From a virus, in IMG/VR virus record IMGVR_UViG_3300025647_000352, positions 1 to 20,484 of that record: DNA of 20,484 nt. One strand, given 5' to 3'. The stretch's first letter is position 1, and the number at the start of each line of letters is the position of its first letter. The notes under the pieces were generated by a model. That model saw only the letters and a program-made list of their open reading frames with translations, ran no database searches and was not told where the DNA came from. Shown in pieces: positions 717 to 20,484 of this stretch. The position numbers and the translations under genes are program-made.

Positions 717-1265
717 TTAGTGGGCCGTAGCTTCCTTGCGAGCCTTAGCAGCTTCCACCGCAGTGACAACCGCACGCAGCAATTCCCCGTCGATATCATC
801 CTCAACCCCATCCTTCGGGGCAGACAGACGCTTCTTGGCCTTCTCGATATCTTTCAGCAGGTCATCAAGAAGATTGATCGACTTTACTTCTGCTGGCTTC
901 TTGCATTCCCAGAAAGGCTTGTCCCGCAAAGACATGAAAGCCTTGCCCATCATCTTGTCATCGACATGGGCGTAGAAAGCCTTTGTTTCCTCAGAAAACT
1001 TCAGCGGTGACATGAGTTGGACCCATGCACCAACAGCGGACTTGTGATACCCAGAAGCAAGAACAAGAGAGTTGATTTTCTCGACAACAACACCTTGAAC
1101 CGCTTGATCACCGGGATTGTCATGCCAATGTTTGAAGATACATACGCCAAGGTTATGGATTTTCTGCTGCAACTTTTGACCATCCGAGACAATGACACCA
1201 ATCACAGTGTCAACGTCCTTGAAGTCATAGGTGTGCGTAACCTTTGATTTTGTTTTGGTAGTCAT
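717..1265 (-). CDS. Hypothetical phage protein, 182 aa
   Basis: The product begins MTTKTKSKVTHTYDFKDVDT. The start at 1265 is preferred over the ATG at 1280 because a GGGAT element precedes the inner ATG while nothing like a ribosome site precedes the outer one. The protein is soluble and charged. Its middle has aromatic patches (IFKHWHDNPG, AFYAHVDDKMMG) and its C-terminal third is a Lys/Glu/Ala-rich predicted helix or coiled coil ending in EATAH. I do not recognise a family. It is the first gene of the leftward set, about 1 kb from the nearest possible rightward gene, which makes it likely early or accessory. Coding is supported by length, codon pattern and lack of a better frame. Confidence 0.75.
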   Translation of the reverse strand: MTTKTKSKVTHTYDFKDVDTVIGVIVSDGQKLQQKIHNLGVCIFKHWHDNPGDQAVQGVVVEKINSLVLASGYHKSAVGAWVQLMSPLKFSEETKAFYAHVDDKMMGKAFMSLRDKPFWECKKPAEVKSINLLDDLLKDIEKAKKRLSAPKDGVEDDIDGELLRAVVTAVEAAKARKEATAH

Positions 1266-1993
1266 TTTGAAATATCCCATCTGTTGAGTGTCTAACTACT
1301 ATACCCCTAGGGAGGCACAGTAGAAGAACACTCAAAACCCCATTGCTCAAGGCAAAGAACGGGCTGGCCCGTCTTAGGTTCTAAGTGTTCTAAGATATTT
1401 CTTTGATTTTTTAGCAGGTTAATTCTATTCAACCCGACGCGGTAAAGGTGCTATATCTTTCAATATACCCCCGACATATCCATGCCCGCGTTTATAACTA
1501 CAGTGGCGCTCTAAGTATCCAGCAACGGGTTGCCCCTGTTAGGATATTACCTAACCTATGGTTGACTGATACGCATTAGAGACAATTACGCTAGGCGGGA
1601 TCAATCCCGCTCTGTATTCTGTCAATTCAGAACCTAGCACCACTATCCGCCCTATACATTACTCTTTGTGCTATTCCGCGACGATATCCGGCCTAAATCA
1701 TTCCTCTAACAGGTCGAGCCTACTCATTCCCTGTTAGCGTCCAATAGGTTGCTTATCGCCCCTGCACTCTAATCACTGCACGGCCCGCTTGCGTATGTCA
1801 CAACTAGGACCAAGCGGGGTGCCCTAGTAGCGTAGTCGGTAGCGACATCCCTGTAAACTAGGGGGCTTTCCGTTGTGTCATGGTATTTGGGAACCAAGGA
1901 AACCCGTTGTCGTGACTGAGAGATAGCAAGCGGCCCTAGGCATTGCAAGAAGAAAATGACAATAAAGACAATAAAAGCGACAAGTGATTGAAA
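1266..1993. other. Gene-free stretch
   Basis: No convincing coding region or complete tRNA was found here. Short hairpins are visible: ACGGGC-TG-GCCCGT near 1360-1375, and GCGGGA-TCAA-TCCCGC at 1595-1610. CTGTTAG or its complement CTAACAG appears near 1535, 1706 and 1732. The bases at about 1821-1866 start and end with CCCTAG/CTAGGG and contain a D-arm-like segment, but no T-arm. No clear promoter for the leftward genes could be picked out, although it should lie here. Confidence 0.5.
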
Positions 1994-2684: not shown

Positions 2685-2870
2685 TACTTAAAGTAACCCC
2701 TTGACAAGCGGGGCTACCAGTGTATAATTATATACTATAAGTATACTGGTAGTATATACCTAGAGTCACTCTTAGTATTTTACTCTTCTATACTTTAATA
2801 TACTCTTAGTATTCCTCTAGGTTCTTATTCTCTTATTACTTATAATACTCTTAGTACGATACTCTAAGTA
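2685..2870. promoter_or_regulatory. Operator-like array of TACT-N3-AGTA dyads
   Basis: Seven 11-base dyads of the form TACT-N3-AGTA occur within 186 bases. They start at 2685 (spacer TAA), 2733 (ATA), 2744 (GGT), 2767 (CTT, first base C), 2801 (CTT), 2846 (CTT) and 2860 (CTA). The first ends five bases before the -35 box of the promoter at 2701. The second and third abut and cover the expected transcription start. The third to fifth are 23 and 34 bases apart, and 2733, 2767 and 2801 are evenly spaced by 34. This is the layout expected of a cooperative DNA-binding regulator. No candidate binding protein is encoded nearby. Confidence 0.7.
2701..2728 (+). promoter_or_regulatory. Consensus sigma70 promoter
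   Basis: TTGACA at 2701-2706 and TATAAT at 2723-2728 are both perfect consensus boxes, 16 bases apart. Transcription would start near 2735 and run into the lysis operon. An imperfect palindrome, ACCAGT...TGGT (2716-2750), covers the -10 box and start, and TACT-N3-AGTA dyads lie on both sides, so tight regulation is likely. Confidence 0.8.
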
Positions 2871-2902: not shown

Positions 2903-2930
2903 TTGACAACCTTGACCAAGAATATATAAC
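2903..2930 (+). promoter_or_regulatory. Second sigma70 promoter, before the first rightward gene
   Basis: TTGACA at 2903-2908 and TATAAC at 2925-2930 are 16 bases apart, the same spacing as the promoters at 2701 and 14860. The start would fall near 2937, giving a very short leader before the ATG at 2943. Confidence 0.68.
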
Positions 2931-2942
2931 TAGGTTAGAAAC

Positions 2943-3182
2943 ATGTACTACAAAAATGACAATGTAATCGAAGAATTTTATAAAAACCTTTTAGATAAAG
3001 AGAGCCCTGATAGGATTCATATCCCTAGGTCTGATGTCTTCTACGTAAGAGCAGCGATCTACGCCAACACAGGAGTTCAGTATACTCTTGATCACGTAGA
3101 GCGAGCTATGTTAGTGGAAGGACACCTAGAGGCTAGTGATTGCTTTGAACCAAAAAGAATTAGAGAAGAACTGGGGTTCTAA
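2943..3182 (+). CDS. Hypothetical protein, 79 aa
   Basis: This is the first gene of the rightward operon. The product begins MYYKNDNVIEEFYKNLLDKE and has no membrane segment or motif that I recognise. The ribosome site is weak (AGG about 12 bases before the ATG), which fits a very short leader from the promoter at 2903. Its TAA overlaps the ATG of the amidase gene by one base, so the two are probably translationally coupled. A lysis or regulatory role is only suggested by position. Confidence 0.7.
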   Translation: MYYKNDNVIEEFYKNLLDKESPDRIHIPRSDVFYVRAAIYANTGVQYTLDHVERAMLVEGHLEASDCFEPKRIREELGF

Positions 3183-19455: not shown

Positions 19456-20484
19456 ATGACAGGATACGTAAGGAACGATACCTCAAACAACATCGCTGAC
19501 GGTAACGTTGTCAACGCTGCTGACTTTGACGGTGAGTTCGATGCCATTGAGTCTGCCTTTGTAGCAGCTACTGGTCATACACATGATGGTACTGCTGCTG
19601 AGGGTGGTGCTATCACTGTCACTGGTCCTGCTCAGGATTATGTCTCCGGTGCTGGTGACTTCTCCCCTAAGACTGACTCAACGTACACTCTTGGTACAAC
19701 GGGTGTACGGTGGTCTACAGGTTACCTAGATAACTTGGTACTCACTACCGCCCTACCAGTCACTGAAGGCGGCACAGGGTCTACCTCAGCGAGTGCAGCA
19801 CGTGCTTCACTTGGTGTTGCTATTGGTTCTGATGTGCAGGCATGGTCTGCTGTGCTCGACGGTACTACTGCAAGCTTCACCACAGCGGATGAAACTAAAC
19901 TAGATGGCATCGAGGCTCTTGCTGATGTCACCGATACGACTAACGTAACTGCTGCTGGTGCCTTGATGGACTCGGAGGTTACTTCTCTATCGGGTATCAA
20001 GACACTTGTTGTACCTGCAAGCACAACCATCAGTACCTACGGTGCTACTCTGGTTGATGATGCTGATGCAGCTACTGCTAGGACTACCCTTGGTCTTGGT
20101 ACTCTGTCTACTCAGAACTCTGGTACTGTCAGTATCACTGGTGGTTCTATCACAGGTATTACTGACCTAGCTGTAGCTGATGGTGGTACTGGTTCCAGTA
20201 CTGCTGCTGGTGCTCTGGTTAACCTTGGTCTCACTGCCACTGCCGCAGAGTTGAATACCCTTGACGGTATCACAGCTACTGTGACTGAATTGAACTATAC
20301 CGATGGTGTGACCTCAAATATCCAAACCCAGCTTGATGCTAAGGCTCCTGACAACGAGCTAACACAGCTCGAAGTAGAAGACGACACGTCCACGGTATTC
20401 GGGCAGGTGTCGGGGGAGCGGTTGGGGCAGGCGGGCGTTGTCAGCTTTACGGCGCAGGAACAACAGATCGGCGTGGGGCAGACT
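19456..20484 (+). CDS. Tail fibre protein, C-terminus beyond the right edge
   Basis: The frame is open from 19456 to the window end (343 codons). The N-terminus (MTGYVRNDTSNNIADGNVVN AADFDGEFDAIESAFV) and THDGT segment are those of podovirus fibres that attach to the tail. The shaft is repetitive: TEGGTGSTSASAARASLGV and ADGGTGSSTAAGALVNLGL, ADVTDTTNVTAAGALMDSEV, AELNTLDGITATVTELNYTDGV, SNIQTQLDAKAP. These repeats are shared widely among phage fibres. From about base 20355 the DNA becomes GC-rich and the protein style changes (VEDDTSTVFGQVSGERLGQA), marking the start of an exchanged distal part. It would bind the host receptor. Confidence 0.9.
   Translation, partial: MTGYVRNDTSNNIADGNVVNAADFDGEFDAIESAFVAATGHTHDGTAAEGGAITVTGPAQDYVSGAGDFSPKTDSTYTLGTTGVRWSTGYLDNLVLTTALPVTEGGTGSTSASAARASLGVAIGSDVQAWSAVLDGTTASFTTADETKLDGIEALADVTDTTNVTAAGALMDSEVTSLSGIKTLVVPASTTISTYGATLVDDADAATARTTLGLGTLSTQNSGTVSITGGSITGITDLAVADGGTGSSTAAGALVNLGLTATAAELNTLDGITATVTELNYTDGVTSNIQTQLDAKAPDNELTQLEVEDDTSTVFGQVSGERLGQAGVVSFTAQEQQIGVGQT

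Follow-up and report, generated by a model that had tools for sequence, protein, structure and literature searches.

A cluster of seven TACT-N3-AGTA dyads was found around a full-consensus promoter upstream of the orphan gene gp79 in a marine phage fragment (the window, i.e., the whole 20.5-kb stretch analyzed). Related phages carried the same dyads before gp79, several of them had a second array at the promoter of an integrase/replication operon, and many members of a sister lineage displayed a different dyad at the equivalent place. The cluster is probably a set of operators for a phage-encoded repressor acting at two host-sigma70-type promoters, as judged from sequence comparison.

Dyad array and promoters of the window

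The late module of the window was of the HMO-2011 type: the amidase, terminase, portal, coat, and tail genes followed the order seen in HMO-2011-type phages, and the portal gene shared 73–76% DNA identity with those of Roseobacter phages CRP-345 and CRP-603. Its left end comprised two leftward genes followed by approximately 1.66 kb with no recognized gene. The early region, where a second array and the regulator gene would be sought, lay beyond the fragment. The array and its surroundings were composed of the following features:

717–1280, minus strand: first leftward gene across the non-coding region, phrog_1448, function unknown; 5' end without dyad
2685–2695, no strand: dyad 1, exact, TACTTAAAGTA; 5 bp before the -35 box
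2701–2728, plus strand: promoter P1, TTGACA (2701–2706), N16, TATAAT (2723–2728); 12/12 consensus positions
2733–2743, no strand: dyad 2, exact, TACTATAAGTA; at the predicted transcription start
2744–2754, no strand: dyad 3, exact, TACTGGTAGTA; abutting dyad 2 (11-bp spacing)
2767–2777, no strand: dyad 4, CACTCTTAGTA, one mismatch
2801–2811, no strand: dyad 5, exact, TACTCTTAGTA
2846–2856, no strand: dyad 6, exact, TACTCTTAGTA (same sequence as dyad 5)
2860–2870, no strand: dyad 7, exact, TACTCTAAGTA
2903–2930, plus strand: promoter-like P2, TTGACA-N16-TATAAC, 11/12; between the array and gp79
2943–3182, plus strand: gp79, orphan 79-aa gene, first of the rightward lysis/packaging operon; predicted three-helix protein

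A motif scan bore out what a sequence-only reading of this DNA had described: six exact dyads and one with a single mismatch within 2685–2870, a perfect promoter among them, one dyad upstream of the -35 box, two abutting at the transcription start, and four downstream, with three dyads (2733, 2767, and 2801) set in even steps of 34 bp. One more single-mismatch copy, at 2837, overlapped the dyad at 2846. P2 had been overlooked in that reading; P2-like sequences in relatives lay over the gp79 start or just before it.

The density of the dyads had been called far above chance, and two comparisons agreed: (i) exact TACT-N3-AGTA was expected 0.78 times by chance in the whole window, and 0/100 shuffles reached seven copies; and (ii) in a count of every gapped palindrome over the 420 bp upstream of gp79, TACT-N3-AGTA ranked top with six copies, the mean best palindrome count in shuffled versions being 1.3 and 0/200 shuffles reaching six. 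Elsewhere in the window, a single exact copy was present (at 20124). RNA hairpins were rejected as an explanation, since the leader folded no better than its shuffles (z 0.05) and the deviating dyads contained few G-U pairs (12/179).

Two further features were noted in the left part of the window: a minus-strand open reading frame (1–473; about 150 residues) made up of A[DN]LRG-like pentapeptide repeats, running off the left end, and two 27-bp direct repeats (TAAAAGTCTCTATACCTTTGGTTTATA), 42 bp apart, at 2516–2584 upstream of the array.

Conservation and promoter position of the dyads

Relatives were collected as two sets of viral contigs, 80 via gp79 and 80 via terminase. In the terminase set, 17 contigs offered 150 bp or more of DNA ahead of gp79, and every one of them harbored TACT-N3-AGTA there, with one to eight copies each; in whole-contig counts, the TACT arrays were concentrated at this spot upstream of gp79. 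The gp79-selected set, which represented a sister lineage, had TACT-N3-AGTA within 600 bp in 0/80 contigs; many of its loci instead carried another dyad at the equivalent place, namely AGTT-N1-AACT, GAGT-N3-ACTC, or GTTA-TAAC, with counts that in several loci were matched by 0/200 shuffles. Related phages with other replication modules were devoid of TACT-N3-AGTA. A long inverted repeat, GGTACGTGTC...GACACGTACC, was also observed between the array and gp79 in the 400 bp before gp79 of L005, L011, and other sister-lineage loci.

When 2.9 million viral contigs were scanned blind, with no protein query, for pairs of dyads spaced 11 or 12 bp apart, at least 117 tandem-dyad loci emerged. Among the matches listed, 36 contained gp79, and the tandem lay 0–450 bp upstream of it in 36/36; nine without gp79 held CRP-9-type replication genes, and the other 72 included repeats and probable chance matches. 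Tandem dyads in bacterial and archaeal genomes were scattered over unrelated taxa among the matches listed, the bacterial ones looking as expected of chance.

The position of the dyads relative to promoters was compared among gp79 loci having a promoter with at least 10/12 matches (promoters being scored by consensus in AT-rich DNA). A dyad started at -2 to +8 from the end of the -10 box in 14 of the 29 non-redundant loci, as against 3.6 expected when the dyads were rotated. A typical arrangement was TTGACA-N17-TATAATACTTAAAGTA, in which the dyad overlapped the -10 box itself, the place where a repressor would sit; no clear promoter was found beside the dyads in L105, L215, and L254. The number of dyads (one to eight copies) and their spacing varied between loci; tandem spacing peaked at 12 bp (33 cases) and 11 bp (8 cases), partly since the scan demanded 11–12 bp, and terminase-selected loci showed 11–12-bp spacing too.

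These positions bear on whether the sites would serve an activator (middle or late) instead of a repressor. Dyad 1 of the window precedes the -35 box, and the genes under control are late ones, as an activator would have it, but most dyads are at or downstream of +1, and activation is less likely because P1 already has a consensus sequence and should need no activator; overall, activator sites were considered quite improbable.

Second arrays and the putative regulator

Second arrays lay directly after promoters in CRP-9, CRP-13, G002, L214, L240, L285, L296, L302, and others, and the TACT arrays of relatives were confined to two promoter regions. Two contigs contained both arrays, 5.8 and 6.2 kb apart, and the distance was about 6 kb in G003. 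The first protein gene behind the second array was an integrase gene in G002 (after tRNA-Arg) and L208; behind other second arrays came a small 'YDLQEF...YH' protein and then thymidylate synthase and primase-helicase genes. Integrase arm sites were an unlikely identity for the dyads, since CRP-9 and CRP-13 have arrays though their early regions contain no annotated integrase. The YDLQEF...YH family was seen close behind the second array in L199, L214, L230, L255, L258, L296, L302, L184, and L185. Tyrosine integrases were present alongside the CRP-9-type replication module in L167 (10905–11789), L169 (11393–12490), and L208; the CRP-9 paper (PMC8528129), among its hybrid phages, reports integrase for the CRP-6-like group only.

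The sequence-only reading had proposed a multi-site operator for a phage or host regulator, a proposal that gained support from the conserved position, the dyads on -10/+1 of several promoters, and the second site before the integrase/replication operon. It had further suggested a master switch for leftward versus rightward genes, which gained partial support: the arrays at two promoters in relatives fit a switch, but the leftward gene of the window at 717–1280 has no dyad.

A plausible mechanism is that a small phage-encoded DNA-binding protein would bind each 11-bp dyad as a dimer, with adjacent dimers packing one helical turn (11–12 bp) apart. Occupancy over -10/+1 of the strong P1 would shut off the gp79-led operon, which extends into the lysis, terminase, and capsid genes. 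The second array of relatives would likewise silence the promoter in front of the integrase/thymidylate synthase/primase-helicase operon, and one protein would thus time or hold down both operons. Repression rather than activation is inferred here, like the binding, the dimer, and the phage origin of the protein.

An iteron origin had also been put forward. In such a replication origin, transcription from P1 through the array would prime synthesis or open the DNA, and the dyads would serve an initiator or strand opening, much as T7-like and iteron origins do. The array is AT-rich (30% GC) and has divergent modules on either side, and its dyad type accompanies the Cobavirus-type primase-helicase, polymerase, and SSB, a module swap being known (PMC8528129); the base composition and this association with the replication module leave the explanation some weight. 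However, the units are inverted repeats rather than directional iterons, no initiator was seen, and the shared replication proteins are all of known type; moreover, the sites occupy -10/+1 positions, and an origin leaves unexplained the dyads on the -10 boxes of two separate promoters and the second array, 5.8–6.2 kb off at another promoter. No positive evidence emerged for the iteron proposal, and an origin in general was judged unlikely.

The protein reading the sites is probably phage-encoded rather than a host factor, because TACT dyads are not common to all phages of the same host strain: CRP-1, CRP-2, CRP-9, and CRP-13 all infect strain FZCC0023, and TACT dyads occurred only in CRP-9 and CRP-13. 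A host regulator would be in keeping with the host-type promoters and with the small proteins of CRP-9/CRP-13, among which no phage reader protein was found; it is set against by this difference within one host strain and by the alphaproteobacterial genomes, which showed no concentration of tandem dyads among the matches listed, and was regarded as very unlikely. All nine large TACT-type genomes possessed the CRP-9-type replication module, and non-TACT HMO-type genomes were devoid of the SSB and primase-helicase families of that module; dyad type therefore follows the early/replication side.

The searches for the putative repressor covered the small proteins of CRP-9 and CRP-13, which gave no convincing DNA-binding family and no ribbon-helix-helix Pfam family. 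The neighbors of the arrays, gp79 and the YDLQEF family, were not recognized as members of HTH families, and no CI/Cro-like gene was recognized beside either array. Four candidates were rejected: (i) the YDLQEF...YH family, which had an all-helical model and was not found in G001 or G002; (ii) an 83-aa AT-hook-like protein, which G021 and G023 lacked; (iii) the PF14090 HTH protein, an annotation of cobaviruses ICBM2 and P12053L, for which the TACT-type genomes searched gave no match; and (iv) a winged-helix-like gene of CRP-13, absent from CRP-9.

The protein gp79 was extremely conserved (HIPRSDVFYVR core) and was present in nearly all HMO-2011-type late modules examined, including lineages with other dyads. 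It could itself be the regulator, repressing its own promoter with a dyad preference that changed between lineages, which would be a version of the repressor explanation and compatible with it. It is encoded directly behind the array and has a predicted three-helix model; of the small proteins with neither a structural nor a replication role, it alone occurred in all nine large TACT-type genomes and was shared with the sister lineages. Against this, its core residues were invariant across lineages with different dyads; TACT dyads went with two separate gp79 groups in the gp79 tree, where the TACT label required two or three changes (weakly supported groups); and gp79 matched no Pfam or PHROG family and no PDB entry, its three-helix model having no significant structural match and no match to a DNA-binding fold. 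The identification of gp79 with the regulator was accordingly held to be rather doubtful. More broadly, and only tentatively, a single class of phage regulator not described before, perhaps gp79, may govern both lysogeny and lysis in a phage group that is among the most abundant of the ocean, with its recognition site rewritten between lineages and the promoter position and array layout kept.

Comparison with known systems

Ribbon-helix-helix repressors such as P22 Arc, MetJ, and CopG recognize short dyads that can adjoin one another at intervals of roughly one helical turn. The tandem dyads here likewise had spacings that peaked at 12 (33 cases) and 11 (8 cases) bp, but no such protein was found in the genomes here. 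In lambda, the two operator groups OL and OR, bound by CI and Cro, jointly govern lysogenic and lytic genes at two promoters. Two operator groups at two promoters would be present here too, and several relatives carry integrase; different from lambda were the up to eight 11-bp sites, the distance of about 6 kb between groups in G003, and the fact that no CI/Cro-like gene was recognized next to either array.

Cluster A mycobacteriophages (PMC9283540 and PMC6550527) resemble the present phages in having many copies of one short site, including copies at promoters, which there are read by a phage repressor; immunity specificity differs between related phages. Their stoperators lack symmetry and are dispersed genome-wide (PMC9283540), whereas the present sites are symmetric and clustered at two promoter regions.

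The late module and gene order of the window belong to the HMO-2011-type/CRP-9-type marine phages (PMC9038755, PMC8528129, and PMC6918029), and the dyads of CRP-9-type phages were identical in type to those of the window. A text search of these three papers gave no mention of a promoter, nor of a repressor in the two where it was looked for, and no transcription or binding study of these phages was found in the literature searched. HMO-2011-type phages are reported to dominate in the ocean (PMC9038755), and lysogeny is proven or suspected for some of them (PMC6918029). The conserved array offers a direct handle for fishing out the putative repressor and predicts two controlled operons, and tandem TACT-N3-AGTA is a DNA signature that helps to recognize CRP-9-type hybrid phages in metagenomes. 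Cobavirus intergenic regions contained weak relatives of the array at best; at the start of the cobavirus late region in L188 (CRP-4, 39660–40000), CTTTAAAG / TACTTAAAGG was repeated, possibly as a distant version of the array.
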